Source of the DNA: Epinephelus fuscoguttatus
Lineage: Eukaryota; Chordata; Actinopteri; Perciformes; Serranidae
DNA length: 64,000 bases
Reading direction: 5' to 3'
NCBI RefSeq assembly: GCF_011397635.1
Contig: NC_064755.1
Location: 21,187,282 to 21,251,281, forward strand
The notes under the pieces are model-generated. The model was not told the DNA's origin. It was given only the letters and a program-made list of their open reading frames with translations, and ran no database searches. The translations under genes were made by a program, and so were the position numbers. Below, piece by piece: positions 31,601 through 60,810 of the stretch (positions are counted from its first letter, which is position 1; every line of letters begins with the position of its first letter).

Positions 31601-34600
31601 GTCAGGCCCTCGAAGGCCCCCTCCTCCACCAAAGATATCTGGTTCTGCTGCAGGTCGAGACTGGTTAAACTCTCAAATCCAAAGAAGGCCCCATCACGAA
31701 GGACTTTGATCCGGTTGCGTGCTAGAAGGAGGTGCTTTGGTTGTTTTGACCAGGTCTGTGAGGTGGGAACGGAGCTGAGACGCCTGTCCTGACAGTCTAC
31801 GAAGACGTCTCCAGATTCTGTCGACTCTAAGCACTTCGTTGACACAAGCCTGGAGGGGCCTGATCTGCTGTGACGCCCACCACTTCTTACCCTGACAGTT
31901 TTCAAACACATATCAGAGGAATTGATGGCTCGTCAGAGTCTACACGTGGTCATTAGTGAAGGTGAAAAATGGACTGAACAATTAAGACCCAAGAGTAAAT
32001 CCATACCTGTCCCGTGTGAGTTTGTGTCTGGCTCCTTTGAGGCCTCTGCCCTTCCCTGGCTTTTTCATCTCTGTTGACGGGAGCAGGACAAGGAGCAGGG
32101 AGGCTAGGAGGAGAAAGGAGGTCGCACGCATCTTGTTCCTTGCAGGGACTTTCTTTTCAATAAGAAGAGCTGGAGAAAAAAACAGGATTTTTGGATGAAA
32201 GTCTTACAAAAACAGGCTTGGAAACAGAAGCAATGGGTCAAAGGTTAACAGTGTTATTGTTGATGGAACACAGCTGCTGCTTACCCTGAGGAAGAAATAA
32301 GAGGTAGCACATTATGTAAGAGGTAAGAGTCATCCAGGAATGTATATACAGCTTTGAAAGAAGGCAGAATACTTTTGATGCTCATGTTCTTCCCTATATG
32401 CTGTTGTATATTACTAATTTTCTAACAAGGGTTTGTTTTTTTTGTTTTTTTTTTTTAAATGTGGACAACATAGTTTGAACAGCATTTTTTTCTGCTCTTA
32501 ACTTGTTTTCCCTGAATTGTGTTTTCTTAGGTGAATGCAGAAATCTCCAGGACCTCAATTTGTCAGAGTGTTATAATGTTACAGTAAGTAAAACATGGTA
32601 AACAAGTATTTCACTGCTAATCAGATGGTCTGTTCACAAAAGTTGGCTGTGTATGCAGCAGAAAGATGCACATACTTTTGAAATTGATGCTACATGATCG
32701 AGAAAACACAGTTGAAGGGCTGTGGCATTTTTTTTGCTCAAGAGGTAAAAAACTTACAACTACCAGAATGCACTGCGCCACACGACCAGTAAACGCTCCC
32801 ACTGGTGGGTGATGTAATGCAGTTTGCTTGTCCGGAAAAAATGGCGACCAGCTGGCAACAACTGACCTCGTATTATAGTTAAACAGTGCACTACACTATG
32901 TTTCTGAAGACATTTTAGACAAGAAACAGGCAACACAGTAACATAATCTTGGTTTAAATTTGATCAGCACCGCCCCAAGTTTTACCGTTTAATTTGAGTT
33001 TGGCCTGAGTTTGAGAGGCTGGGGTCTCTCTCGATCCACTTCTATACTCTTTTTGTCTGTGGTGGCAGGCATACGAAAATCAAGGCTATTCAAAGAAGAC
33101 TGGCACACTCTCTTTGACCCCATGGGAAGTTCCCTCAGGTGGTCTTCGGGTGCACCCTTTAGCCTCCTTGGGTGCACTCGGCCCGACAGTACTAGAGCCT
33201 TTGTGTATGTTTTTTTTTTATTAAGGACCTTTTCAGTAATTGCAGAATTGTATTTCTCACCCTTTATCGTTTTGTATAAAATATATCCTGACTCAAGGCT
33301 GACTGTGGACGCCCCAGTGAAACAAATCAGTTACCCCCTTGTTCTATGTTAGTGCACCAGCTATTTAGCCTTTTGGCAGGTGCAGACCAGATTTCACTGT
33401 TGTACCCCAATGTTATGACGTGACATGACGCTGTGACTTCCCCTCTTTTTAACCTCCTTGACGTAAATGTGAAATTACAATCTGAACTTCAAGCAAAATT
33501 CCAGCAAAAATCGACTGGGTGATACAAAACACGGAATCTGGCGGATTTTTGGTTGCAAATGCGCAGGGAGTTATGGGCACTGGTAAGATGGAGGGTGAAG
33601 TTTACCACAGTTAATTTACACATTCTACCCACATTGTTATGATACAAAGCTGGCTGAAAATCAGCGAAGACTAATGATAATGTACAGATACCAAAAAAAC
33701 CTAAATCTACAAGAAAATCTTCATATCATATGTAGAACCTACTTTTTGCACAATTTTCTAAAGTTAAATGACAACTCGTCTTTTATTAAATCAACGAAAA
33801 TGTTTGAAAAATAGTTTTTTTTTACTGTTTTATGCATTGCAGTCTTACATAATATGGATTCAATTTCATGTAACCGGAGTAGGTAATTTTTCCTGATGCA
33901 TTGTTGGCTGTGATATTTCACTGTGCCATACACTCTAGTAACAGGTGCCACACAGAGAAAACATAGGGTAACATTTAAATCTCTGCTCTTTAACAGGATG
34001 CGGTGGTCCAGAGGATTGTCGAGGGCTGTCCCTGCCTGCTCTACTTGAACCTTTCTTGTACCCTTATAACAAACAAAACTCTAAGAGAACTTTCCAGGTA
34101 AACCTCCAGTTGTGGTAAAACTGGCATGTCACTAGATTTGTGCTCTAAACTTCAGTCTGTCTCACTCACATCTCTAAATTTAACAAACACCTCCCCGTAC
34201 TATACTCCTTTCTGGCATCCTGCCCCTTGGTTCCCAGATTTAGCTCCATGTCTGTTTGTCCAATGGGCCTCTGGCTTGTATTTCATGTCTCAGAGCAGCG
34301 TGGTCAGTGCCAACCTAATGATTTAGAGGAGCAGGTGTGGTACCAATAACATTATGTCAAGATTATGCAGTTGGTGATAGATTTACAGTCTCAACAGCTT
34401 GTAAGCTCTCTACGTCATGTGTAGTAGTATTATGCAAACATGTTTTGGAAATATTTCCATTTTACAATGCAAGAATTTGAAAATATCTCATTGTAATTCA
34501 CAATATGATGTTGCTGTTTTTGATGATGAGTGTGTATTCAAATATACACTTTTGCATATATAACAAAGCAATTTTCAAAAGATTAAGCACAAACAAGTTG

Positions 34601-36773
34601 TCCTTCATTTTATATACAAACTAATCAAACTATTGATTTCAAACAGAAACTGTGTCAACCTTCAGTACCTGAGTGTGGCCTACTGCTACAGATTCACAGA
34701 TAAAGGGTTTATGTACCTGACCACAGGGAAGGGCTGCCACAATCTCATCCACCTCAACCTGTCCGGCTGCACTCAGGTAAGCTGGTATCCTCTCAGTTTG
34801 GTATTTATTCACTCCACTCAGCTACAGTTGTAAACAGGACAGATTTTTGCCTTTTAAAAGTTCAGCATCCAGTCCACCTTGGATAATTCCAGTCAGTCCT
34901 CTCTATTTCCACGTGTCTCCGCTTGTTTCTTGCTGTACTCTGGGTACTATTTGCACTCAGTCAGCGCTCAGAGCGAATGAACAAAGATCTGAAGGAGAGG
35001 GGAGAGTAAAAGGCAGCTGTGGCCAACAAGAGGGTTGGGTTTATACAGTCACCTCTGGCCCACCCACTCACCATGTGCACTTCTCCATAACATAACACAC
35101 ATGCACCGCAACATAAAAACGCACTTCTCCTCTGGGAATGTGCATTAATTTGGGTCCAGATGTTTTGCTTTAGAGGGCCATGAAAATGTGAGCAGCAAGG
35201 AAAACTGCTTCCAGGAGAATGATTCAGATTTCGACGTACACACATATTTTCCTCTCTCTGCTCCCAGATGACTGTAAATGGGTTCAGATACATTTCTGCA
35301 GGATGCCCTTCACTCAGGGAGATTGTGATCAATGACATGCCCACACTGTCAGACAGCTGTGTGTTGGTAAGTTTGTTCATTTCTAACACATCACAGGTTT
35401 CATACATCGGTCAGAGCCCCAGCTCTGGAATGTTCTACAGCAACTCAGACAATAAGGAATAAATTAGCAAAGAATTTGCTTCGTCAACTCATGCATATTG
35501 GATTTGTCCACACCCTTAAGCCCTCACAGTAGAAATAGGTTTGAGTCTTACTCTTCTTTAACAGGCACTAATTGCCAGATGTCGCTGTCTGTCTGCCATC
35601 TCTTTACTGGATGCTCCTCATCTTTCCGATGTTGCCTTAAAAGCCATCGCTGAAGTCGCCAAGCTGAAGACTTTCAGGACAGAGGGTGAGATCATTGTGC
35701 AGTCTGCAACGTTCATTTCCACGTATACATGAAAAGATAGAGGGGAGCAGGAAATCCTCACATCTGGGAGTCTGGGACCAGAAAAATGTTTGGCATTTTT
35801 TCCTGAAAAATGAACAATTTATCACTTATCAAAACTGTTTTGCTGAATAACTCATTGTTTTAGGACTCATAATAAATGATAATAGCAGATTGTAAGTTGA
35901 AGATTTACTATGCTGGGTTTTCCTGAGAACAAAATGTATAGACTCACACAGAATGAATCCCTCTCGATCATCACTTATGACCCACTAGATGTGTGTGGTG
36001 GTGTGTATTTCTGCAAAGACCCTGCCCTCTGTCTGTATTCTCTTATTTTCTTCTTATTGTCTGTGTTCGGGTTGTTTATGGGCGTGTACCCCCACACCGC
36101 TCAGGTGTGAGCTTAATAAAATGGCAGCAACCAGGTGCCAGAACATAAGCAGCAGACATCTAAGAGACACAGCTCTGGAAAAACACAAATACAGTGATGC
36201 AAAACGAGAGTGAATCTGGGATTGGCTTTTCCTTTCACTTCAGTCAGCACTAAGATGTTTCGTACACGCCGCCCTCCCCAGTCCAGAGAATCTGGTCCAG
36301 CACATTCCACCATCTCTCATCTCTGTCTCATTTCCTTGTGTGGCCCTTTTAACTGTTCCAGTTATTCTGTCTGCACTACACCCCATGTCAACTTTAGGTA
36401 ACAACCAACTAACTGACGTTGGCTGGAAGGCCCTGTGCAGCAGCTCACATGGCCTCCGCAGACTCCACGCTGCAGAATGCTCCAGAATGACAGATGCCAG
36501 CCTTAAATCCATGGCCAACCTCAAGAACCTGCAGCACTTGGACATCTCACTTTGTGACAAGTCTGTGTGTTTGTTGCTGCCGTAGTTTTAGATTCATGAT
36601 AGTGCATTATGTAATGGGTTTATTGGTTGTATTTCAGGGTGAGCGATACTGGGATCCAGTATCTGACTGAAGGTTACTCATCCGCCAAACTGAGAGAGCT
36701 GAATGTCAGTTACTGCAGTCACATCACTGACATGTCTGTCATGAGGATCGCACAAAGGTATAGTATGACTTCC

Positions 36774-36825
<52 letters not shown>

Positions 36826-38330
36826 GTTATATGACGTACTTATCCATAGTCAGTATATTACATACAGTAGATGGTCTGCACGCTCCCAGAATAAATTGAT
36901 ATTTTTTGACATTGATCTCAGCCGGTGAACTCATGAACCTCATACTACCCCACCTCAAAAAATACTAACTATCCCTTTAAAAAGTCTCACACAGCAACTT
37001 TTTTTGTGTCGTGTATGTGCACAATTTATCAGGTTGTGTAAACTGTGCCATCTCAACTTGAGTTATTGTGAGAGACTGACTGATATGAGTTTGGAGTGGC
37101 TGAGTGGCAGCTCTATCTGCTCCCTTGACATCAGCGGTTGCAACATCCAGGATCAGGTATTGTTTGTTCACAAGCTCACAAATTTCTGAAAAAAGATAAC
37201 TGGCCCTGACAGGGAATATTTTGTAACGTGATATTTGTATTTTTAGGGGCTGGCGGCTTTTCAGGGAACATGCTTGAGGAAGTTAGCACTGGCCGAGTGT
37301 GTCTGCGTCACAGATATTGGCATAGAGGTACAAATCTAGCTAGAATTTCGACACATGTCCATATGTGGCATCTATAAAGATCAGCTTACAATTTTTTTGT
37401 GGGTCCAAGTTTACTTCCTTTTCTAGTGTATCCTAACATCAGCAGCTGACAGGAAATGAATGTGTACCTAAACTGTTTCCCAGAAAAACAATCCCAAAAA
37501 AAGTCAATCATGTTCACAGTTGTTGTGTCGCTTACTGATTACTAACCGATGTGAGCACAAGACGGCATGTATGTCTTCTGTGTCTTCTCCTCATTCATTT
37601 TATCATCAGTTCACATTTCATCCCACATCTTTCTCTCGTCTCTCTCGTTCCTCACGAGTACAGAAGCTGTGCAAGAACGCAAGAGACCTGGAACATGTTG
37701 ATGTGTCTCACTGCGTCGCTCTGTCAGACCCGGCCATCAGAGCGATTTCATTTTACTGTCGAGGTCTAATCACACTGCGGATGTCAGGTTGTCCCAAGGT
37801 ATACACACACATACACATATACACACTTCTCTAAAGCATGAATTTTCATTTCATGCCAAATGTTTTCTATTTTCTTCTGTCCTGCCTCAGATGACAGACA
37901 TGGCAGTGCAGTATCTGACAACTGGATCTCCCTACCTGCGAGAACTTGATGTGAGTGGCTGTGTTCTTCTCACAGATCGCAGTCTCCGACACTTAGAGAG
38001 GATCTGTCCTCCACTCTGCTCCATCACCATGGCCTGCTGCAGCAGCATCTCCAAGTGAGACACAGTTAAGAATAATGCTGCAAAGTTAGAGTCCTGCGTG
38101 ATAGCATTTAATGACCAGAGAGTGTTTGATCCTGTAGGGTGGCTGCCTTGAAGCTCCAGCCACGTGTAGAACACTGGGAGCACAGCAACGATGACCCTCC
38201 GTACTGGTTTGGATACAACATGGGCCAAGTAGTGTATCCAATCACAAGACCCATCAAGACTGATGACACCTGTGAAGTACTGGAGCATCACTCAGTGACG
38301 ACAAGAGCAGCAAGTACAGAGAGGATATAA
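16720..38330 (+). CDS. fbxl13: F-box and leucine-rich repeat protein 13 (dynein regulatory complex subunit 6)
   Basis: Twenty-one coding exons: 16720-16809, 17019-17125, 17908-18028, 18146-18213, 23058-23212, 23585-23694, 23785-23874, 27272-27367, 27471-27606, 32531-32583, 33997-34097, 34647-34776, 35268-35366, 35565-35685, 36398-36560, 36638-36757, 37033-37156, 37247-37327, 37664-37798, 37891-38054, 38138-38330. These sum to 2,457 bases (818 residues) with every phase matching. Residues about 110-235 are basic and Trp-bearing (CFRKWKRF, AFTKWTKRVEL, IIAAWRNVVKD). An F-box follows at about 237-285 (LSLKIFRYLELRDWLKCAEV). Then come about 15 leucine-rich repeats of the C-containing FBXL type (LNLSGCTQMTVNGFRYIS, VDVSHCVALSDPAIRAI, LDVSGCVLLTDRSLRHL) and the signature tail NDDPPYWFGYN. 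FBXL13/DRC6 is a subunit of the axonemal nexin-dynein regulatory complex and has an F-box of the SCF ligase type. Exons 3 and 4 rest only on splice signals and phase. Confidence 0.94.
18869..18874 (-). terminator. Candidate polyadenylation signal (AATAAA) of the orphan secreted gene
   Basis: On the minus strand AATAAA occurs about 163 bases after the stop codon at 19037. It is the first canonical hexamer I noticed there. Position is plausible; use is not shown. Confidence 0.4.
19037..22199 (-). CDS. Unrecognised secreted, cysteine-free, Ser/Gln-rich protein nested in fbxl13
   Basis: Three coding exons (22199-22183, 22093-22035, 21222-19037) join in phase to 2,262 bases, 753 residues. The start ATG sits in a strong context (CGCCATGG). 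The N-terminus MALPFGVSWLCTLLSWGFIC is a good signal peptide, cleaved near residue 26. The first 17-base exon and the second exon encode only that signal, and one 2.2-kb exon encodes the rest. The mature part has no cysteine. It is rich in Ser, Gln, Asn, Pro and Tyr and looks disordered. Acidic/polar stretches dominate the first two thirds, and basic ones the end (IMSRKFGIKNIISDIRGARN, PRRRGIF). NIT is a possible N-glycosylation site. I recognise no domain and no mammalian counterpart. A long frame, signal peptide and correct splice phases argue that it is real. A matrix or egg-coat-like structural role would be a guess. Confidence 0.78.
21251..21969. mobile_element. MITE with TTAAAGC ends in intron 2 of the orphan gene
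   Basis: The left end TTAAAGCTGTAGTTGGTAAC and the inverted right end (GTATCAACTGTGGCTTTAA) match imperfectly. A second inverted block, GCTGAAACTGTCAC/GTGACAGTTTCAGC, lies just inside each end. The element is about 719 bases and carries no transposase. It accounts for most of the intron between exons 2 and 3 of the nested gene. Confidence 0.75.
22577..22620 (+). repeat. TA/TG microsatellite
   Basis: A run of TA dinucleotides passes directly into a run of TG dinucleotides. It lies upstream of the orphan nested gene start (22199), inside fbxl13 intron 4. Confidence 0.95.
23875..27271 (+). other. fbxl13 intron 7 (3.4 kb)
   Basis: Contains a decayed MITE copy at 26358-26715 and otherwise AT-rich sequence. 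No exon or nested gene is supported. Exons 7 and 8 join in frame across it, in the middle of the F-box. Confidence 0.7.
26358..26715. mobile_element. Decayed MITE of the GGTCCAGTGTGT family
   Basis: Starts AAAGGTCCAGTATGTATGGT and runs into the internal sequence shared with the copies at 4931 and 44544 (GGGGGATATATTGGCAG, TTTATAATCACCTG, CTTAGAATGAGC). The right terminus is eroded. No coding capacity. Confidence 0.65.
27910..32131 (-). CDS. lrrc17: Leucine-rich repeat-containing protein 17, nested antisense in fbxl13
   Basis: Six coding exons: 32131-32007, 31891-31415, 31264-31050, 29042-28887, 28416-28275 and 28192-27910, giving 1,398 bases and 465 residues (human 441, from memory). A signal peptide (MRATSFLLLASLLLVLLPST) precedes a basic linker. 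Then come a Cys-flanked LRR block (HLLLARNRIKVL, SLDLQQNQISLVEEGAF, TTLLLQHNRLGTLSEEAL, YLRLYDNPWKCLC), a spacer with CHTYLFPQVRMDC, and a second LRR block (VVHIDLSHNLIRHL, LRTLNISHNNMERI, LRELDLSENSLHFIQYGVLE). The end is a C-terminal cap (GGNPWVCDY, YMVYWLHLHP, VAEYVRSYNRECPKD). LLLARN, LDLQQN, LRLYDNPW, SNRNLGN and Y-RSY-ECPKD are near identical to LRRC17, a secreted LRR protein reported to restrain osteoclast formation. The donor after exon 3 is GC instead of GT. It lies in fbxl13 intron 9, a nesting also known in mammals. Confidence 0.96.
30580..30860 (+). repeat. Probable dispersed fish repeat in lrrc17 intron 3
   Basis: A segment with GTGACAGGCTGTCTGCAAGG, CAAGATCCACCCCTC-like and TGAGGCTTCAAAACAG motifs looks like a repeat familiar from teleost introns. 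It has no open frame of note. The class could not be named from sequence alone. Confidence 0.35.
32584..33996 (+). other. fbxl13 intron 10 (1.4 kb)
   Basis: AT-rich intron with no recognisable gene. The piece at 32925-33000 (AACATAATCTTGG, GCACCGCCCCAAGTTT) resembles the interior of the MITE at 21251-21969, so part of it may be repeat derived. Confidence 0.5.
35907..36245. mobile_element. Decayed MITE related to the copy at 42681
   Basis: Shares TACTATGC-GG-TTTTCCT at its start. Inside, it shares TGTTTATGGGCGTGT, CCCCACACCGCTCAGGTG, AACATAAGCAGCAGACATC and GGGATTGGCTTTTCCTTT with the element at 42681-42916. It sits in fbxl13 intron 14 and leaves both splice sites unaffected. Ends are eroded, so bounds are approximate. 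Confidence 0.6.
36776..36824 (+). repeat. CA microsatellite in fbxl13 intron 16
   Basis: An uninterrupted CA dinucleotide run beginning about 20 bases after the donor of fbxl13 exon 16 (36757). Confidence 0.95.
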
Positions 38331-46378: not shown

Positions 46379-49300
46379 TACAGGCCAAAAGTTTGGACAC
46401 ACCTTCTCATTCAATGCGTTTTCTTTATTTTCATGACTATTTACATTGTAGATTCTCACTGAAGGCATCAAAACTATGAATGAACACATGTGGAGTTATG
46501 TACTTAACAAAAAAAGGTGAAATAACTGAAAACATGTTTTATATTCTAGTTTCTTCCAAATAGCCACCCTTTGCTCTGATTACTGCTTTGCACACTCTTG
46601 GCATTCTCTCCATGAGCTTCAAGAGGTAGTCACCTGAAATGGTTTCCACTTCACAGGTGTGCCTTATCAGGGTTAATTAGTGGAATTTCTTGCTTTATCA
46701 ATGGGGTTGGGACCATCAGTTGTGTTGTGCAGAAGTCAGGTTAATACACAGCCGACAGCCCTATTGGACAACTGTTAAAATTCATATTATGGCAAGAACC
46801 AATCAGCTAACTAAAGAAAAACGAGTGGCCATCATTACTTTAAGAAATGAAGGCAGTCAGTCCGGAAAATTGCAAAAACTTTAAATGTGTCCCCAAGTGG
46901 AGTCGCAAAACCATCAAGCGCTACAACTAAACTGGCCCATGAGGACCGACCCAGGAAAGGAAGACCAAGAGTCACCTCTGCTTCTGAGGATAAGTTCATC
47001 CGAGTCACCAGCCTCAGAAATCGCAAGTTAACAGCAGCTCAGATCAGAGACCAGATGAATGCCACACAGAGTTCTAGCAGCAGACCCATCTCTAGAACAA
47101 CTGTTAAGAAGAGACTGCGCGAATCAGGCCTTCATGGTCAAATAGCTGCTAGGAAACCACTGCTAAGGAGAGGCAACAAGCAGAAGAGATTTGTTTGGGC
47201 CAAGAAACACAAGGAATGGACATTAGACCAGTGGAAATCTGTGCTTTGGTCTGATGAGTCCAAATTTGAGATCTTTGGTTCCAACCGCCGTGTCTTTGTG
47301 AGACGCAGAAAAGGTGAACGGATGGATTCCACATGCCTGGTTCCCACTGTGAAGCATGGAGGAGGAGGTGTGATGGTGTGGGGGTGTTTTGCTGGTGACA
47401 CTGTTGGGGATTTATTCAAAATTGAAGGCACACTGAACCAGCATGGCTACCACAGCATCCTGCAGCGACATGCCATCCCATCCGGTTTGCGTTTAGTTGG
47501 ACAATCATTTATTTTTCAACAGGACAATGACCCCAAACACACCTCCAGGCTGTGTAAGGGCTATTTGACCAAGAAGGAGAGTGATGGAGTGCTGCGGCAA
47601 ATGACCTGGCCTCCACAGTCACCGGACCTGAACCCAATGGAGATGGTTTGGGGTGAGCTGGACCGCAGAGTGAAGGCAAAGGGGCCAACAAGTGCTAAAC
47701 ACCTCTGGGAACTCCTTCAAGACTGTTGGAAAACCATTTCAGGTGACTACCTCTTGAAGCTCATGGAGAGAATGCCAAGAGTGTGCAAAGCAGTAATCAG
47801 AGCAAAGGGTGGCTATTTTGAAGAAACTAGAATATAAAACATGTTTTCAGTTATTTCACCTTTTTTTGTTAAGTACATAACTCCACATGTGTTCATTCAT
47901 AGTTTTGATGCCTTCAGTAAGAATCTACAATGTAAATAGTCATGAAAATAAAGAAAACGCATTGAATGAGAAGGTGTGTCCAAACTTTTGGCCTGTACTG
48001 TAAGATTGTAGGTCTTTTATACACTCACAGACTTAAAGCATATGTGCATGGGTAACCTGCCTAGGATGGTCTTGTACATTACAGTATACCAGTGCTGCAT
48101 CCTGTGTAGAGCAAGTGAAGACCATCTGACCAGACTGTACAATGTGAAGTGAAGAGTCCTACAGCCTGAGTTTGAAATTTGTCTCAGAACACTTTGATAA
48201 AGTGGGTCAAGTTTGGCCTGAGTAGTGAGACAAGCAAATCTGCTCATGTTTATGCTGCCATGCCACCACCTACCTTGACAGAGTGCAGCAGACAGTTTCC
48301 CTTCTCTGTTTTCACTTTGCAGATATCACACTCCATTTTCTTCACTTGCACGTTGCCTTTTCCTTGAGCAGTAATGAAGACATCTGACAAAAGGAGACAC
48401 CAGAGGACAGAGACAGGGTCATGACAACTGCTGAAAAAAATATGAGGACATTTGAAAGCACCATACGGATCAATGATGGACCCTACTGTAGACATTCAAG
48501 ACTGCATTGGTGGAATGTTACTGAGTACGTTTACTGTACTTAAGTGTAAATTCAAGGTACTTGTACTTTACATGAGTATTTAAATTTTATGGAAATAGAC
48601 AGATATTTCTACTCCACTACATGGGGGAAATGTTGTACTTCTTACTTATCTGCATTTGTCTTGCATCTTAAATTAGTTTTCAGATTACAGTTTTTAATCT
48701 GCTTTCTGTCAAGTAAAAACCACGAATCTCCACATGTGCAGATGCAGAAATGCTCCTTTATGTGTTGAGGAAATTCTACGACTACTTAAGCTAAATAACC
48801 TCCTCAAACCCCCTCTTGGATCAGCTGGAAAACGCATAGTCACAAAGCTGAAACAAAGGCTTTTTTTCTGACACCATCAAAACATAATGATCTTATAGAA
48901 TATGATGCATTGCTGTAGGTAACACTGACAGGGAACGCTTTACTGCAGAATGAATACTTTTACTTATAAAACTTTGAGTTGGGGAGACTGGGTAGGGTTG
49001 TAAAACAGGATGTTTGTAACAGCACAACTTTTGCCAAGAAGGGATGATCTATGAGTCATATAATAAATTATTGTATGACTACTTCCTTCCTGGCCTTGCA
49101 TATAAAATTTAGTGAAGAGATGTGAAGATTTTACAGCCCAATACGGATTTTCAGCTATAAGAGTAATAATTTGGACCAACTTTGGTAGTACTGATACTGT
49201 TGAAATTAGAATTATGTAACTTGTATTAGATTAGAGAGTAGTCTCTTAGGTAAAATGTGAGGTGTTTCATCTTTGCTCATCTTAAACCACAATGCTGCAA

Positions 49301-51068
49301 CAGCTCTCTGAATAATAGCTGATGGTTGGTAATGACTTGAAGTGTTACAACTAACCCCAATGACAACTGAACACATTTTATCTACTTATCCTACTCCTTT
49401 TTGCAGCAGGCAAGAAGAGTTGGTGAAAAATCTGACAGGGCTGTCCTGCTTGCACATGCACTGAAATCTGCATCAGATGAGGTGAGGTAGGGAAAGACAG
49501 AAGGGTCTGTCTCCTATCTGCCATGTGACACTGAGCAGATAGAGCCTGCTGCAAGACATTACAAGACCTAAGAGAAAGAGGATCAACACAGCTGCTCTAC
49601 GTGGGCTATCCTAGCTCTTAAATAGTCTTCAATGTGCAGCAAGAGGATGTCTTGACTGGTGACTTGACTACGGTAGCAGCAGACTTGTATTGTGGACTCA
49701 CTCCATGTGAGGCACTAAGCCTCTGACAGGAACAGGTTAGCAAGTTAGACCTTAGTAGGACTTGGTAATTAATGAATGTATCCATTGTTTAATTTTTAAT
49801 TCTTCACTCTTATTGTTAGAAGTTACCCTGACAGTGGGACAGGTTGTAATAATTGAACTCCTTGTATTTGATACCAGTTAGTGAGTTGTGTGAAATAGTT
49901 GGAGAATTGGAAACATTGCTATTAGTACTTGACAAATAAGGGGATTTTGTGTTAAAATTTGAGGGTAGTAAAACAAAAATTAAACAAGTTACAGGTGCTG
50001 AGACATAAAGTGGTACACCCATACCCAGTCTCCCTACATTTACCTAATAGCACTTAAATACTTTTACCTTCGTGAGATTTTGAATTGATATCAAATAATG
50101 GATTCTGTGAAATAGTTGTAGAAGTGGAAACATTGCTATTAGTACTTGACAAATAAGGGTACATTGTGTCAAAATTTCAGGGTAGTAAAACTAAAATTAA
50201 GCAAGTTATAGATGCTGAGACAAAAAGTAGTACCAACCATATGCAGTCTCCTCTACATTTTGCTAATAGTACTTACATACTTTTAACTTAGTGAGGTTTT
50301 GAATTAATATTGAATAATGAATTCTGTGAAACTGTTGGAGAATTGGAAACATTGCTATTAGAACTTGACAAATAAGGGTACTTTGTGTCAAAATTTGAGG
50401 GTAGTAAAACTGAAATTAATAAAGTTATAGGTGCTGAAATAAAAAGTGGTACAACCATAAGCAGTCTCCCCAACACTTGATGATACCGCATACATACTTT
50501 TACTTCAGTCAGGTGTAGTGGAGTATTTTCAGTGTGGTATTAGTAGCCAACAATAGTAAAGAATTAGAAAGGTCATTTTCATCCATAACTGCATCATCAT
50601 CATCATCATCATCATTAGTAGGAGACACTCACTACTTTTGATAGGTGCAGTCAGATCAATAGACACACTGCTGTTGATCCTCTCAGCTGAAATGAGCAGC
50701 TCTTTGCTCTGGTCATCATAGTGGACGTGTAAGTGATCCAGACAGACCTCCTGCTCGATGTCTGTCCCGTAAACTGTGATGAAGGCTCGGTCAGCCTCAG
50801 GGAAGGCGTGCGGGTCCAGCGGCTGGATGGAGATGCTGCAGCCCAGCTGTGCCCGCACCGTGCTGAAGGGACTCACCGCCAGGGACCACCGCTTCAGAGG
50901 CTGGTTCACCTCCTCCTGTGCTGGAGACCTCACAGAGGCAGAGATGGAGAAGAACCGTGAAGCATGCAGAGGGCAGTGAGGGGTCACGGGTGTCCTGGCA
51001 CCGACTGTGAGGGACCAGCAGCGGAGGAGTCCGACACATCCCCGCCGACCTGCTGAGCTCCAAGACAT
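43228..51068 (-). CDS. fam185a: FAM185A protein (beta-repeat, adhesin-like)
   Basis: Eight coding exons: 51068-50633, 48383-48274, 45925-45833, 45658-45520, 43948-43907, 43810-43715, 43612-43478 and 43325-43228. They total 1,149 bases, 382 residues, with all phases consistent and GT-AG ends. The N-terminus (MSWSSAGRRGCVGLLRCWSL) is Arg-rich without acids for about 50 residues, so a mitochondrial presequence is possible. The body is a run of short beta repeats (GKGNVQVKKMECDICKVKTE, HGGHVTGVGTIHGNVDIS, KKLQGTTMKVSTECGPLKVK, SSNSGRIELGHVHG, SSHSGAIDVYVGDGGSAEL), as in FAM185A and DUF4097 adhesin-like proteins. The tail (QWVRAQADRN, QSWFESLKL) matches the human end. Function is not firmly known. 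The gene is convergent with fbxl13, next to which it also lies in human. Intron 2 holds a Tc1 transposon and intron 1 a 218-base tandem repeat. Confidence 0.96.
44544..45285. mobile_element. MITE of the GGTCCAGTGTGT family, itself interrupted by another MITE
   Basis: The left end AAAGGTCCACTGTGTAGCAT and right end AATCCTACACACTACTAGACCTTT are imperfect inverted repeats of the family seen at 4931 and 26358. Internal landmarks (TTTATAATCACCTGAAAATAAG, CTTAGAATGAACC) match. The element is interrupted at 44822-45089. It lies in fam185a intron 4. Confidence 0.8.
44822..45089. mobile_element. MITE with GGGGTCTCATTTATAA ends, nested in another MITE
   Basis: The left end GGGGTCTCATTTATAA and right end TTTATAAATGAGACCCC are inverted repeats of about 16 bases, 268 bases overall. 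It lies wholly inside the older element at 44544-45285, so its insertion is the later event. No transposase frame is present. Confidence 0.85.
46025..46105 (+). mobile_element. hAT-like terminus fragment
   Basis: CAGGGGTAAGCAACCTGTGGCTCTTGAGG-type sequence (start CAGGGGTAAGCAACCTGTGG) resembles one end of a common hAT family. The matching other end was not seen, so it is probably truncated by the AT-rich DNA and the Tc1 insertion that follow. Confidence 0.5.
46349..46375 (+). repeat. TA microsatellite, target of the Tc1 insertion
   Basis: An alternating TA run that ends exactly where the Tc1 element at 46376 begins. Tc1/mariner elements insert at TA, so the microsatellite is a natural target. 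Confidence 0.9.
46376..48000 (+). mobile_element. Nearly intact Tc1/mariner transposon with long terminal inverted repeats
   Basis: The element is 1,625 bases, starts CAGTACAGGCCAAAAGTTTG, ends with its inverted form and is flanked by TA on both sides. The inverted repeats match almost perfectly for about 270 bases; I saw only two or three differences. That is long enough for the right repeat to include the last codons of the transposase. High similarity of the two ends suggests a fairly recent insertion. It sits in fam185a intron 2, in the opposite orientation to the gene. Confidence 0.95.
46789..47837 (+). pseudogene. Tc1 transposase with early frameshifts
   Basis: The start ATG at 46789 opens MARTNQLTKEKRVAIITLRN, after which small indels (near 46850 and 46910-46940) break the helix-turn-helix part. 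From about 46940 the frame is open to 47837. It carries RKGRPRVTSASEDKFIRVTS, the first catalytic Asp in [22 protein letters not shown], the second Asp in FQQDNDPKHTS, and the acidic third residue in SPDLNPMEMVW, a DD34E arrangement. Because only the DNA-binding end is broken, this copy looks recently dead. The 316-residue open part is in itself not expected to bind its ends. Confidence 0.9.
48020..48250 (-). pseudogene. L1/Tx1-like LINE remnant
   Basis: Minus-strand frame gives HWYTVMYKTILGRLPMHICF and PLYQSVLRQISNSGCRTLH-like pieces, which resemble the HW--L-YKA-LG-LP motif near the end of fish L1/Tx1 ORF2 proteins. It is short and lies between the Tc1 element and fam185a exon 2. Weak call. 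Confidence 0.45.
49800..50500 (+). repeat. Tandem repeat, three copies of about 218 bases, in fam185a intron 1
   Basis: The landmark AAACATTGCTATTAG recurs at 49911, 50128 and 50347 (spacing 217 and 219). The surrounding sequence (ACTTGACAAATAAGGG, GAGGGTAGTAAAAC, GTGCTGAGACA, GCAGTCTCC) is repeated in each copy with scattered changes. The copies are clearly diverged, so the duplication is not recent. Outer limits are approximate. Confidence 0.88.
50593..50616 (+). repeat. TCA trinucleotide microsatellite
   Basis: A run of CAT/TCA triplets just 3' (in gene sense) of the fam185a exon 1 donor at 50633. On the minus strand it reads through as a run of Met codons only if the intron is retained. 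Confidence 0.9.
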
Positions 51069-53979: not shown

Positions 53980-54015
53980 TTTATTGAACTATAATGAGCA
54001 TCTCAAGAGTTTATT
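53980..54015 (-). terminator. fgl2: Candidate polyadenylation signals of the fgl2-type gene
   Basis: On the minus strand AATAAA occurs at 54015-54010 and again at 53985-53980, that is 36 and 66 bases after the stop codon at 54051. Either could end a very short 3' untranslated region. Confidence 0.45.
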
Positions 54016-54050: not shown

Positions 54051-57000
54051 TCATGGTGCAAAGCCCTTTGGACGGATCATCATCCTGACCTTTTTAAAAG
54101 ACTGTCTGTCATTGGTGGGGTAAAACTCTGTAGATATGTTGTGCCATGTCCCCCAGTAGATCCCGTCCCGGACTCCCTTGTACCTCCCCGCATAGTACTT
54201 CCCGTTGAGGTTTGCAGCCAAGCAGGCATCAAACCACCAGCCGGAGCTGTAGTAGGCCCCGCAGTTCCCGGATGGATAGCGGTCGTTGTCTCTGTCCGGC
54301 GTGGTGAACGCCCTGTTGTTGTGGTCGTACTGCTTACTGAAGCGGAGAGCATCACCTGCAGTGCCAGAGTAACCACCCACTGACAGCCTGTAGCGCAGCC
54401 GCTCACTCGCCACCCTGAAGTGCTCATACTCTGCATACTCCATCACCCCTTCAAAGTCCTCCAGCTCCACCCGCAGCACCATGTCCCTGTCCCGGGTCAG
54501 CAGGTGGATCATGTTGTTGCCCAGCCAGAACTCCCCTCCGTCCAGCTCCCCGAAGCCTGCTCGGTACTCAGCCCAGGTGCGGTTGAAGCTCACGCTGCCG
54601 TCCTGCCGGCGCTGCAGGAGCGTCCACCCTCCTCCATTCAGCTCCATGTCACAGAGGACTGGGAAGCTTCTGCTGCGGAGGTCAGGGGTCACCAGGTACA
54701 CTCTGCTTCTTGTCTCTCCCCTGAGCAGGTGGTCGGAGCAGTCTCTCGGCATAGTAACTGCAGATAAGGAAATCACAATGACTTATTAGCAGCTGTCTCT
54801 GAAAAATCTTCCAAGCCAAAACATGCCTTCCAACATTTAACCAAAGTCTGCTTCTTCTCATATCTTTCAGGTGATAATATCATCGTGCAGCTGTGGTGCA
54901 GCCGTGAAATGCGTTAGGAGAGGTCACAAGGGCATCAGGTCAGGGCAAAGCTGTTTTTCCACCATTAAATATTTAGTGTTTTTCAGGAATTCCAAGGTGG
55001 GCCTCCACAGTAGAGATACACAAACTGTATTGAGAGATAGAAATGCAATATTTAAAATGTGTAACTGTAAAATAGCAACAGTATTTGTGATTGATTTGAT
55101 AAATAAACACAAATATCAGTATGCTAGAATCTGTAAAGAAGATTTTCACCTGTTGCATGATAAGCAGACTGTCGTTATTAATTCATACGCAGCTGCTGAA
55201 CTCAAAGGCTAAACTAAAGAATCCATTAGATTGATTCAATGCCATATTATTTGCTTACTGTGAGCCACACACCGAAGGATGTTTTAAAGCTGTTACTCTA
55301 CACATAGTTGTGGTTTTTAATCATGACACCCGCTGGGACACACAAACATTTTGCACGCATATGCAAATTCCTCATTTAGCCACGATGCATGGCATAAAGA
55401 TGATCTCAGACCACATAAATTATATCATAACTGTAGGTGTAGACAGCAGAGGGATGGAGGGGAAATGTCCTCCTATATATTTAGAACATATGCACAGGAG
55501 AGAACTTTTATTTTGACAATACTTAAGACAATACCACCATAAATTGATGCAAAAAATGCATAAAATGGTGCATAATTATCACCAGAATGCAGGAAATTAA
55601 GTGTCTGATGCTTGTTTCATATGTGGCCCTCCCAGTGTTGATTTTCATCATACATTTATATGAGGATCATTAGTGCTTACCGTGTGGTCCTCTTATTTAA
55701 AATCCTTTTAGCTCAGGTCATACCACTTTGCCGAGTGAGTAATACAATTATAATCCCCCAGATACTAATCCACAATACTTTTCTCTTGTTATTATGATGT
55801 AATGTCAACAAAAGACAATGGATTTTTATGGGGTTGGTTGTAAATTTCACTATGACGTTGCACATGCCTCCATTTCTCTCACTCTTCATTTTTAATTCCT
55901 CTGCGTGCAGTGAATATTAAAACATTTCTTTGAGTTGGCTGTTGGAACAAAGCAGCTATTACAGTATTATACATTGTGGTGCTAATCAATGCTGTCTCTC
56001 AAAGCAGGCTAATAATTACATGCTGGCTGTATCAATAACAACAACAATCTCTGCATAAAGTTACCCTTTATATGTGGAAATTCATACATGCATTAAAAAA
56101 CAAAATAGACTGAGCAATAAAATATCACTTGCCTTTAGACGGTTTCACTGCTGGTACTTTATTTTCAGGTCTGCTGCCTCCTTTGTTGTCTCCCAGGTGC
56201 TCTTTTGGACGCCTGTCCGGTGGCCTTCCATTTGGAGTCAGGCTGTTGTTGAGGAAAGCGGCCACCTGGTTGATTTTCACACGCAGCTCTCGTGCACTGG
56301 GAGTGGAAGACTCCACAGCTGGGGGCTCGGGGCCAGAGGTGGCAGGGGTTGTTGACCTGAGGTCAGGGCTGATTGTGGAGGTAGTTTGGGCACTGCGTGT
56401 AGGGACTGGAATCATCATTTTGTCTGGATATGGAGTTTGTGTGGGTGCTGCTACCTCCACACTGTGGAGTAAGCTGGAGTCAGTATTAGATGCTAGATTT
56501 GGCTTTGTGGATTTTGGACTTGTGCTAGGGATAACACTTGGGAGGATCCCATGGATGATTTTGTTTGGTTTTGTTGTCATTGGGATCGATGGTGGTTGAC
56601 TGGCTGTTTGTGGCCTCAGATCAGACGTAATCCTGCTGTTTGGGCTCATCGTGAAGCCTTCAGAGAGAGTGTGAGGGCGAGGGAAGGGTCCAGTCTCCAG
56701 GCTGTTGGAGGTCTTTGGACCCGCAGTGATAGTTTTCATCGTGCTGGGACTGAACTCTGTGACCCCCGGAGCATGAGTGACTTCACCAATCTGTGTTGCA
56801 GGGCCTGGTGCAGGTGGCATGTCAGTTTGAAAGGCTTGGATGTTGTTTGAATCAGTCCCGCTGATTTGAAGGGGATCTACGTCTGTTTTGGTCTTTGGAC
56901 TTGGCTCTAGTTGCACTGCTGGTTTTGGCCTTTGAAGGGGTGTTGCTCCTGGCCTGAGTGTAGGTCTGGTTGGTGGCCTGTGTCTGGGTGGAGGCCTCGG

Positions 57001-60000
57001 TTTGGATGTTTTGTTAGATTGTGCTTCAGGAATTTCATCACGCACGGATTTGGGGTTAAGGTCAGGCATTTGGACAGGCCGAGGCGTTCTAATACCTTGA
57101 TTGGTTTGTGGAGGTTTAGGCTTCATGTTTGGTTTCGTCTTTTGGCCTGTTACAAGCTCTGGATGTTTTTGGTTGGGTTTTGGCCTTTGGTTTGTTTTAG
57201 GAAATTTCTGGCTAGGTTTAGGGTTTTGATCAGGGCGTTTGATTGGGCCACGATCAGGTGTGAGCTTTTGTCCAGGTGTTGAGTCTTTGACAGATTTAGG
57301 ATTTTCATCAGACTTTTCCTTTAATTCTGTTTGAGGCTTTTGGTTAGATTTTGGTGTGAAGCTAGTTGGTTCACTAGTTTCGGGGTCAGGCTCTTGGTCA
57401 GGTGTGAAATACTGGTTTATCGCAGACCCTCGTTCAGGTTTAGGCTTTTGGTTAGACATTGGTGTGAAGCCAGTTGGTTCACTTGTTTCAGGTTCAGGCT
57501 CTTGGTCAGGTGTAAAATATTGGTCTATTGTAGACCCTTGATCGGGTTTAAGCTTTTGGTCAGGTTTAGGCTTTTGGTTAGATTTGGGTGTGAAGCTAGT
57601 TGGTTCACTTGTTTCAGGTTCAGGCTCTTGCTCAGGTGTGAAATACTGGTTTATCCTAGACCCTTGATCAGGTTTAAGCTTTTGGTTAGATTTTGGTGTG
57701 AAGCTAGTTGGTTCACTTGTTTCAGGTTCAGGCTCTTGGTCAGGTGTGAAATACTGATTTATCCTAGACCCTTGATCAGGTTTAAGCTTTTGGTTAGATT
57801 TTGGTGTGAAGCTAGTTGGTTCACTTGTTTCAGGTTCAGGCTCTTGCTCAGGTGTGAAATACTGGTTTATCCTAGACCCTTGATCAGGTTTAGGCTTTTG
57901 GTTAGATTTGGGTGTGGACCTAGTTGGTTCACTTGTTTCAGGTTCAGGCTCTTGGTCAGGTGTAAAATATTGGTCTATTGCAGACCCTTGATCGGGTTTA
58001 AGCTTTTGGTCAGGTTTAGGCTTTTGGTTAGATTTGGGTGTGAAGCTAGTTGGTTCACTTGTTTCAGGTTCAGGCTCTTGCTCAGGTGTGAAATACTGGT
58101 TTATCCTAGACCCTTGATCAGGTTTAGGCTTTTGGTTAGATTTGGGTGTGAAGCTAGTTGGTTCACTTGTTTCAGGTTCAGGCTCTTGCTCAGGTGTGAA
58201 ATACTGATTTATCCTAGACCCTTGATCAGGTTTAAGCTTTTGGTTAGATTTTGGTGTGAAGCTAGTTGGTTCACTTGTTTCAGGTTCAGGCTCTTGCTCA
58301 GGTGTGAAATACTGGTTTATCCTAGACCCTTGATCAGGTTTAGGCTTTTGGTTAGATTTTGGTGTGAAGCTAGTTGGTTCACTTGTTTCAGGTTCAGGCT
58401 CTTGCTCAGGTGTGAAATACTGGTTTATCCTAGACCCTTGATCAGGTTTAGGCTTTTCTTCAACTTTCGGCTTCTTGTGAGGTTTTTGAGTTTGGTCAAG
58501 TTTGTCAGTTGTCAGAGGATGATCTGGCTTTTTCCCAGGTTTTGAGGGTTTAGTAATAATTGGTTTTTCAACAGATTCAGTCTCTCGGTCAGTTCGAGGG
58601 TCTTTGCCAGAACCAGTTGCATTTACAGTTTGAGGTCTTTGATGAGGTGCAGGTCTGTGAACAGGAGGCATAGCCTTTTGATGAGTTTTTGGCTTCTGCA
58701 CAGGTAACTGGCTTTGATCAGTTGTATGTTCTTGGTCATGTTTAGGTATTTTATTGTTTTTCAGATTTTGATCAGTCTCTAAATGATCAGGTCGAGGTCT
58801 TTGGTCAGGTTTTGGGACCTGGACTCGTTTAGGGTCTTTGCCAGGTTTAGATTTTCGCTCAGTTGTGGGTTTCTGGTGGGAAGGCTTCTGCTTTTGGTCA
58901 TGTTTTGTTTTTCTGTCAGGCAAAGGGGCTCCGCCAGGTTTACGGTCATTCTTTGGATTTTTTAGTTTTTGGTCTGCGTCAGGCTTAATTGCTGGTTTAT
59001 GCTTTTCACCAGGCTTTGGTCCTCGGCCTGGTGGAGGTTTCATGCCAGTCTTAGTGTTTGAGCTGATGTTCTTTTTAGCTGTCCAACGGCCGCGGTCTGC
59101 GACTCCTGGAAATGTAGTTGTGTATAAATTCTGACGAGGAGTTATAGTTGCCGTAGTCAAGCTAACTCGACCCTGGAAGCCTGCCCCAGGTCTTGCACGG
59201 GTTGTAGAGGTGAACCCATCAGTGGCTCTGGTAATCTGTTGTCCAGGACCACCCAACGTGTTTATTGTGGCTGTTGTTGTTGGCATACTTGTGGTCCTAA
59301 AGCCTTCCTTTCCATCAGGGCGCGGCTGTTCAGAAATGCCAGCTGCTCCAAGGCCTGCGCTTTGAGTTGGTAGTCCATCATCAACTATTGTCATCCCTTG
59401 ATTGGCATCTGTGACCAAATGTGAAGTCGGGCTGGACAAAGGAGGAGATGGAAGAAATGATGTAAAGGTTGTAGCTTCGTTTGAGTCCATGGAGTCGTGC
59501 CCTGGAGTTAAACTAATGATGGGGTGAGGAGTCGGACTGATTGAAACAAAGTCTGTCCTCTCAGTTGCCTTGCTGGATGCTAATTCTCCATCACTGTCCC
59601 TCTGCACACTCTGGACCGTTTTTTCTCTCTCTGTTTTGATCTCTCTTCCTGCCTCCCCGTCCTCCTCCTCCCCCTCTTTTATAGTCTCTTTTTCTGCACG
59701 CCCGATGCTTTCAGTCTGTTTTGGTTTCTCATTATTTCGCTCCACTTTTATTCCCTTTTCCATTTCCTTTTTCCTCTCCTCCCCATGCTGCTTTCGCTCC
59801 TTATTTGTATGCTCATCATGGTCCTCGGACATCTTTATTCCATCACTGCCCCTGTCTGCTTCAGTTTGGGTCTTTTTCCCTGTTTCCTTTGTTTCATGTT
59901 GCCTCACGTGATGGTCACTTTCTTCTGTCTTCTCCTTATTTTTTACATTACTCGTAATCTCCCTCTCTTTTCCACTCTCCAACTTATCTTCTGGATCTCG

Positions 60001-60810
60001 CTTTGAATTCCCTTTTCCATCTTTGTCCTTATTTCTGTCTGTCTCTATCTCCTTGTTATTCTTTTCAACAACATTTTTGTTGATAATATCCACTGTCCTC
60101 TCATTTCCACCAGCCGTTTGCACCTTTGCCTGCCCTAATTTGTCCTTTCCTTTTGCCCCTTCTGTTTTAGTTTTTCCATAATTTTCTGACATTTCTTTTA
60201 GGGTTTCTTCCCTCTCATTTTCTTTTACGACCCCTTTATCGCTCCCTCTCTCTGCTTCCCATTTCTTTCTGTCTTTCTCTTCCAAAATTGTTCTTTTTTC
60301 TGAATCAGTGTCACCGTCCCCCTCCGTAATCTTTTCTGCTTTAACCCTGTCTGTCCCACACTGTGGACCAAACTCTTTCGGCCTGTCAGGTTTTCTCTCA
60401 TTCAGCCAGTTCCTCTCATCCTCATGTCTATCCGTACCCTCATTCAGCTTTTCATGCTGTCTCTCTCTTTGCCTTCCACACTCTCTCTCAGTTTGGCTTA
60501 CTGTACAATCTGCACACATCTTCCTCAGTTGGTCCACGTTGTCCTTCAGCTTCTGCAAATCCTTCACGATCTGCTCCAGCTCTCTGAGCTGGTTTGGCAA
60601 ATGGAGAGTCAGCGGCGGCAGACTGAATAGGTATGGACACGTGTTCTCATCCTGTCCATGTCTGCACAGCCCCTCAGGTCTCAAAGTTGCAGTGCAGGGC
60701 CCAAATCCATGATCCCCCAGGACGTTTCCTTCATCAGAGTCTGTTGTGGTCCAAGACAGGGTCGAGAAAGCCAGCAGGATCCCACATACGCGCAGTGCTG
60801 TTAACCTCAT
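54051..60810 (-). CDS. fgl2: Fibrinogen-like protein 2 (fibroleukin) type protein with a giant low-complexity linker
   Basis: Two coding exons, 60810-56133 and 54757-54051, give 5,385 bases and 1,794 residues; human FGL2 has 439 (from memory). Signal peptide: residues 1-22 (MRLTALRVCGILLAFSTLSW). FGL2 N-terminal region: about 35-105, with conserved Cys residues, CPYLFSLPPLTLHLPNQL and a short coiled coil ending MCADC. Then a Lys/Glu-rich charged stretch (about 105-405), a Ser/Thr/Pro part (405-570), and a Pro/Lys/Gln region (570-1400) that includes ten 36-residue repeats (786-1157). A Thr/Ser/Pro part (1400-1505) and a helix-like RELRVKINQVAAFLNNSL follow. The fibrinogen C-terminal domain (1560-1794) has four Cys, GGGWTLLQRRQDGS, the calcium site DRDNDRYPSGNCG and WWFDACLAANLNGKYY. 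The frame is open throughout, against chance. The phase-1 junction requires a GC donor (AAAG/GCAAGT). The start is set by the signal peptide, although the frame is open upstream. Secreted; role of the linker unknown. Confidence 0.92.
54758..56132 (-). other. fgl2: fgl2 intron 1, GC-AG
   Basis: A 1,375-base AT-rich intron, the only one in the coding region. The donor reads AAAG/GCAAGTGATA and the acceptor TTATCTGCAG/TTACTATG. No exon or repeat of note is seen inside. A GT two codons further on (GGCAA/GTGATA) would put the fibrinogen domain out of frame. Confidence 0.75.
57340..58455 (-). repeat. Coding tandem repeat array in fgl2: ten units of 108 or 126 bases
   Basis: Ten head-to-tail copies encode the 36-residue unit KPKPDQGSRINQYFTPEQ + EPEPETSEPTSFTPKSNQ. 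Eight units are 108 bases. Units 5 and 9 are 126, with an extra six residues (KPKPDQ before KLKPDQ). The lengths add exactly to 1,116 bases. Units are nearly identical, with a few recurring variants (KPK or KLK start; SRINQ, SAIDQ, STIDQ or SAINQ; PEQ or PDQ). The longer units lie four apart, suggesting a higher-order duplication of a four-unit block. All differences keep the frame. Confidence 0.97.

Follow-up and report, generated by a model that had tools for sequence, protein, structure and literature searches.

The question raised by this locus is how a gene whose two ends are recognizably those of FGL2 can encode a protein about four times the usual length. The gene lies on the minus strand of the window, that is, the whole 64,000-nucleotide stretch of Epinephelus fuscoguttatus contig NC_064755.1 (positions 21,187,282 to 21,251,281) analysed here, which belongs to contig C4 of the genome searched (26 contigs, 1.047 Gb). 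Published work on FGL2 deals with a compact prothrombinase and regulator of immunity, the activity of which changes with its oligomer state. The gene in the window is most likely one of two duplicates, namely the one that has expanded; its product would be so long because the hinge between the anchoring end and the fibrinogen head grew. We regard the gene as real, well delimited and unusual, and the mechanism proposed for it as a hypothesis. Among the literature matches listed, no title or abstract opening describes a fish or giant FGL2 of this kind.

Translation from the ATG at 60810 through two coding exons (Table 1) gives a predicted protein of 1,794 residues, which reproduces exactly the model given in a preliminary description of this DNA (60810-56133 joined to 54757-54051). 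The reading frame of the giant exon contains no stop in 1,559 codons, compared with 27-188 stops in the five other frames. In 1,000 first-order Markov shuffles, stop-free runs reached 262 codons at most (mean 125), which rules out an open frame that arose by chance and bears out the single stop-free exon described earlier. In addition, base composition differed among the three codon positions in all seven blocks compared, repeat or non-repeat. A Pfam profile search of the giant exon returned no match up to an E value of 1. The exon ends in the donor AAAG/GCAAGT, with GC in place of GT but otherwise the full consensus. Scored with a weight matrix in which bases +1/+2 are unscored, this donor reached 8.46 bits and outscored every other GT or GC site scanned, while the 153 GT sites in and just behind the giant exon reached 3.0 bits at most. 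Six GT sites lie between 56128 and 56265; the only one that would keep the frame, at 56210, scored -11.9 bits. On this evidence the gene structure is firm. The giant exon, previously described as an addition, is instead the enlarged counterpart of exon I of mammalian FGL2, which has 204 codons (PMC11141035). The window gene has two coding exons, yet its exon I is far from the canonical size, and the gene is therefore classed as an FGL2 duplicate by descent rather than as a canonical FGL2.

Both ends of the protein are of the FGL2 type, as the preliminary description had proposed. The last exon encodes a complete fibrinogen-related domain (FRED; Pfam PF00147, Fibrinogen_C, 4.5e-84) that is identical to human FGL2 at 145 of 229 positions and to FGL1 at 106 of 219. 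The human FGL2 sequence used here is a working reference; it agrees with the printed length of 439 residues, the printed peptide at 76-87 and the printed cysteine spacing of 29/129/13. FGL1 was the top match among solved structures (6.6e-53), and FGL2 was absent from the best 60 of the 68 solved-structure matches. An Asp-rich stretch at residue 1714 presumably corresponds to the place where other FREDs bind calcium. The FRED cysteines are spaced 29/130/13, close to the 29/129/13 of the published FGL2 positions (206/235/364/377). At the other end, the N-terminal module matches human FGL2 at 27 of 61 positions (z 24.5), with the N-terminal cysteines and the first inter-chain pair aligned. The published inter-chain cysteines of FGL2 are 94, 97, 184 and 187. 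The first pair is kept in the window gene as C99/C102, and the second (184/187) is absent because no cysteine occurs between residues 151 and 1566; two extra cysteines are found at 111 and 151. Ser89/91 of FGL2 has been tied to prothrombinase activity in published work; the human Ser91 position is occupied by Gln94 in the window copy and by Lys in a second copy described below. An AlphaFold2 model of the first 160 residues alone had a mean pLDDT of 59, with the best values in a helix spanning residues 72-105 (10-residue block means up to 89), and a model of the FRED built without an alignment (pLDDT 31) was not used. The N-terminus gave only short coil matches to G-beta among PDB sequences (E at least 0.029 in the best 60 of 124), and a scan of viral-contig and genome-contig collections with the FRED recovered no relative. 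Structure matches, FRED identities, the N-terminus and the FRED tree together led us to reject the possibility that the gene encodes a fibrinogen chain, FGL1 or an angiopoietin.

A second, normal-sized FGL2 gene, which adds to what the preliminary description contained, is present on contig C22 (19466255-19476280, L027/L028). Its splice model has 451 residues in five coding exons with GT-AG borders, cysteine pairs at 118/121 and 208/212, and an intact second coil. When the genome was searched with the FRED, the next match after the window was C22:19466258-19469139, in three pieces of 73, 70 and 61% identity. A search with residues 23-112 found the window and C22:19475912-19476124 (46%, E 2.4e-11), followed among five matches by one at E 2.5, so that the N-terminal module has just two genomic matches with E below 1. 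The window intron shares both its place, at the linker/FRED border, and its phase with an intron of the C22 model. That model has five coding exons where mammalian FGL2 and the window copy have two, which points to intron gain in the C22 gene or intron loss in the others.

The surroundings of the two copies also resemble each other. Window exons with Pfam matches to F-box, LRR and Arm_2 are taken here to belong to FBXL13, LRRC17 and ARMC10. The best other match of the LRRC17-like exon is at C22:19401416 (71% identity over 97 residues), and the distance to FGL2 is 22 kb on C4 and 65 kb on C22, with order and strand alike. A first exon that we tentatively take to be that of FAM185A, with no Pfam match in the four open reading frames (ORFs) tried, had no second copy in the genome. 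Published gene lists place FGL2 with FAM185A and LRRC17 in chicken and with FAM185A and FBXL13 in sheep. In a tree of eight fibrinogen domains, some of them partial, the window copy, the C22 copy and human FGL2 stood apart from the rest (90%); the FRED of a locus on contig C23, which we take to be fibrinogen-alpha-like, fell outside this group, and the window gene did not group with fibrinogen-alpha. With human FGL2 as the third sequence, the window copy had more unique residues than the C22 copy both in the FRED (33 versus 16, chi2 5.9) and in the N-terminal module (13 versus 3, chi2 6.25). The two genes are most likely parts of a duplicated block stemming from the teleost genome duplication (ohnologues), and we consider the case for duplicate origin moderate to firm.

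The main difference between the copies is the linker. From the first cysteine pair to the first FRED cysteine it measures 1,463 residues in the window gene and 102 in the C22 model, making it approximately fourteen times longer; it thus exceeds the linker of its sister by 1,361 residues net, and not by the roughly 1,450 estimated earlier. The segment VKINQVAAFLNNS near the end of the linker shows a gap-free alignment with the start of the C22 coil exon (6 of 13 identical; 24 of 2,000 shuffles scored as well), and the 70-residue windows that contain it gave the highest score of the whole expansion (33 versus 24 for the next). The remainder of the C22 coil and the second cysteine pair have no counterpart in the window copy, which appears to have lost most of its second coil. 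Given the placement of this remnant and the lack of a counterpart for the rest, growth probably took place in the hinge after the first cysteine pair, at or near the site of the C22 intron. A direct comparison of the linker with exon I of mammalian FGL2 gave no significant similarity (z -0.2 for the expanded middle and 1.7 for the tail).

Composition changes along the linker in the order previously described, from a Lys/Glu-rich block through a Ser/Thr-rich block and a Pro/Lys/Gln-rich region with repeats to a Thr/Pro-rich block (Table 1). The Lys/Glu-rich block has a net charge of approximately zero, and its charges are more evenly mixed than in 999 of 1,000 shuffles; it contains 2% Pro and 11% Ser+Thr. 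Across residues 576-1300, tandem array included, Pro makes up 17-22% and Lys and Gln are abundant; in the first Pro/Lys/Gln block, periods of 37 and 6 residues exceeded the 95% shuffle level and remained below the shuffle maximum. The entire linker contains 155 Lys, 98 Gln and 199 Pro. A loose mucin threshold of our own choice (Ser+Thr of at least 25% with Pro of at least 5%) was passed by 6 of the 34 overlapping windows of 100 residues, all of them near residues 401-600 or 1301-1500, and residues 106-1560 contain 31 TP and 19 PT dipeptides. The hydropathy-charge score was negative, on the side of disorder, over most of the linker. The mature chain would have a mass of approximately 198 kDa before glycans, with a linker contour of approximately 525 nm if fully stretched. 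The suggestion of a bottle-brush or polyelectrolyte linker thus holds in so far as a long low-complexity linker carries a fibrinogen head; mucin-like density is confined to the windows just mentioned.

The units of the tandem array differ in length by multiples of three and are 87-100% alike, and this likeness, together with the higher-order period, points to recent growth of the array. Over all 45 unit pairs pN/pS was 0.34 in frame, compared with 2.9 and 1.6 in the shifted frames, and the variable columns comprise 13 third, 5 second and 3 first codon positions, which shows past coding constraint on the 108-bp units. DNA and protein searches, the former skipping very common words, found the array at no other place in the genome, and a dispersed element is ruled out.

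Table 1. Features of the expanded FGL2 gene in the window (position 1 is the first letter of the window)
Feature	Position	Strand	Details
Giant coding exon	56133..60810	-	4,678 nt; residues 1-1559 plus one base, ends in phase 1
Predicted signal peptide/hydrophobic N-terminus, approximately residues 1-22	60745..60810	-	Sequence; helix 5-17 in a low-confidence AlphaFold2 model; putative cleavage site
FGL2 N-terminal module, residues 39-102	60505..60696	-	Three Cys, SLPPLTLHLPNQL, first coil, inter-chain pair C99/C102
K/E-rich polyampholyte block, residues 106-410	59581..60495	-	Charged fraction 0.50; extra Cys 111 and 151
First Ser/Thr-rich mucin-like block, residues 411-575	59086..59580	-	S+T 28%, P 10%
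Pro/Lys/Gln-rich block, residues 576-787	58450..59085	-	Weak 6-residue periodicity
Tandem array, residues 788-1159	57334..58449	-	10 units: eight of 36 and two of 42 residues; 450-bp higher-order period
Second Pro/Lys-rich block, residues 1160-1300	56911..57333	-	Composition
Second Thr/Ser/Pro-rich mucin-like block, residues 1301-1505	56296..56910	-	S+T 29%, P 17%
Likely second-coil remnant, residues 1511-1523 (VKINQVAAFLNNS)	56242..56280	-	Alignment to C22 coil exon; moderate
Intron, GC-AG	54758..56132	-	1,375 nt, phase 1, at linker/FRED border
Last exon, FRED	54051..54757	-	707 nt including stop; 4 Cys: 1566, 1595, 1725, 1738
Two AATAAA polyadenylation-type signals	54015-54010 and 53985-53980 (span 53980..54015)	-	At most 75 bases past stop

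Our preferred reading, in which we have middling confidence, is that the window gene is an FGL2 duplicate in which the hinge has turned into a probably largely disordered tether of approximately 1,460 residues. Mammalian FGL2 is described as forming disulphide-linked tetramers, with monomers that behave unlike oligomers, and zebrafish fgl2a is described as an IL-10 target in macrophages after injury. The window protein would be secreted, the retained coil and C99/C102 linking its chains at the N-terminus. As most of the second coil has disappeared and the second cysteine pair is absent, the fibrinogen heads would be unclamped, each at the end of a long, charged chain rich in Pro, Lys and Gln and in part O-glycosylated, so that a single oligomer could reach widely spaced ligands. 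Alternatively, transglutaminase could knit the oligomer into a clot or matrix, in the manner of the fibrinogen alphaC connector; Lys and Gln together account for 253 of the 1,463 linker residues, which makes such cross-linking a fair guess.

Among known systems, mammalian FGL2 and the C22 copy resemble the window protein in the hydrophobic start, three N-terminal cysteines, the PPLT..LP motif, the first coil, the first inter-chain cysteine pair, the intron at the linker/FRED border and the FRED cysteines; they differ from it in the short linker (102 residues in C22), the full second coil, the second cysteine pair and the lack of the extra cysteines 111 and 151. The closest analogue of the linker itself is the fibrinogen alphaC connector, where a coil is likewise followed by a long flexible linker of tandem repeats. 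In the alphaE chain (fibrinogen-420), a FRED stands at the chain end after a linker of the alphaC type. Unlike fibrinogen alpha, the window FRED and N-terminus group with FGL2, and the linker is far longer and rich in Pro, Lys, Gln and Glu. The alphaC connector is described as flexible and mostly unstructured, with 10 tandem repeats of 13 residues that add to fibre flexibility, glutamines that are cross-linked by FXIII, and a repeat number and period that vary among species. A more speculative version of the preferred reading, which we consider improbable, is that the FGL2 duplicate has arrived on its own at the layout of alphaE-fibrinogen, in which a disulphide-linked coil is followed by a long cross-linkable tether of repeats and a fibrinogen head, and that fishes thereby gained a second extensible polymer able to form clots or matrix. 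The tether would perhaps have begun at the sister-copy intron, with exonized intron sequence as its seed, a possibility raised because the remnant aligns with the start of the C22 coil exon.

Several observations weigh against the tether and duplicate-pair interpretation. The proposals of transglutaminase cross-linking and glycosylation derive from composition, and in the two Ser/Thr-rich blocks (411-575 and 1301-1505) the hydropathy-charge index is slightly positive and therefore lends disorder no support there. Cysteines 111 and 151 may replace the lost pair, and the pN/pS of the repeats is uninformative about the other three quarters of the giant exon. The FRED tree sets the window copy outside C22 plus human FGL2 (66%), possibly because of its faster branch, and an older duplication is possible; moreover, the LRRC17-like match on C22 has an internal TAG, suggesting either a broken gene or a match that runs into an intron. 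Finally, fast change and repeats also fit relaxed constraint. This last point leads to the rival we take most seriously, although we think it rather unlikely: constraint on a redundant duplicate was lost, A-rich sequence encoding Lys, Pro and Gln enlarged its hinge through slippage and unequal exchange, and length matters little to function provided that the frame remains open. The faster change of the window copy relative to C22, the 450-bp higher-order period with its closely similar units, and a low-complexity linker whose array is unique in the genome all speak for such growth. However, slack expansion does not readily account for 1,559 codons having been kept open or for the bias of repeat change towards third positions, and the intact FRED with its four cysteines argues that the protein is still under constraint.

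It is also conceivable that the linker is of a true mucin or lubricin type, densely O-glycosylated and forming a brush, anchored by the fibrinogen domain, that lubricates or prevents adhesion. As in PRG4/lubricin and the mucins, a very long repeat-bearing linker with Thr/Pro-rich parts lies between folded ends, a layout published for PRG4, and the Thr/Ser/Pro-rich blocks of 165 and 205 residues have 28-29% Ser+Thr in addition to the TP and PT dipeptides. The PRG4 repeats are reportedly all contained in one exon. We nevertheless consider this type quite unlikely here, given that most of the linker is not Thr/Ser-dense, that the loose threshold was passed in so few windows, that the array has 22% Ser+Thr with 28% charged residues, and that residues 106-410 are poorer still in Pro, Ser and Thr. 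The repeat unit is also not KEPAPTTP-like, and no somatomedin B or hemopexin part was found, since Pfam gave no match in the giant exon. Exon 6 of PRG4 is mentioned in the literature. Least probable of all, in our view very much so, is an artefact of the gene model, in which part of the long frame is an intron or belongs to a second gene and the main mature protein is an FGL2 of normal size. The GC donor is unusual, and the best GT donor in phase with the last exon, at 60437 after residue 124, could permit a short form of approximately 359 residues, although it scores only 1.6 bits and so lends weak sequence support to the suggestion that most of the giant exon might be spliced out. Only one of the 407 AG sites inside the giant exon reaches 6 bits (59431, 6.7 bits); as it exceeds the real exon-2 acceptor (4.5 bits), acceptor score decides little by itself. 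An acceptor-like site at 60816, with a polypyrimidine tract followed by CAG and a score of 9.4 bits, stands six bases 5' of the ATG and suggests an untranslated upstream exon, in which case the model may lack part of its 5' end. On the other side, none of the 141 GT sites within the giant exon reaches 3 bits, the best internal GC site (phase 0) scores 4.4 bits compared with 8.5 for the one used, the frame is open across the whole exon and the repeats are under constraint. Internal introns or exitrons were rejected on splice-site scores, with the weight matrix described above and with a pair test that covered GT donors only.

Other features were noted in the window and elsewhere in the genome. 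Within the window, LRRC17-like LRR exons (28855-31932, minus) are nested within an FBXL13-like F-box/LRR gene (27191-38058, plus), and near the ARMC10-like exons there is a 737-residue open frame (19037-21250, minus), Ser/Gln/Pro-rich by eye, for which Pfam and PDB searches gave no match. A tandem repeat with a period of 219 and 2.7 copies (49882-50470) adjoins the FAM185A-like first exon. A Tc1-type transposase frame at 46851-47837 (plus) is open over 328 residues (PF01498 8.8e-12, PF13358 1.6e-8), and a Tc1-like remnant lies at approximately 1003-2188 (PF13358 2.2e-5 in one ORF, under the curated cut-off). On contig C23, at approximately 6.10-6.16 Mb, there are three adjacent loci (L002, L003, L006, L009, L011, L012), which we take to be fibrinogen-alpha-like. 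In each, a Ser-rich open frame (219-228 residues) precedes the fibrinogen domain, as in the alphaE layout; one of the fibrinogen domains is uninterrupted and two match in pieces.

The occurrence of a giant and an ordinary FGL2 in one genome provides a natural means of testing how linker length, coil and second cysteine pair each contribute. The pair also illustrates how a giant low-complexity domain can arise from the hinge of a duplicated gene. Additionally, annotation pipelines that expect an FGL2 of approximately 440 residues may cut such a gene.

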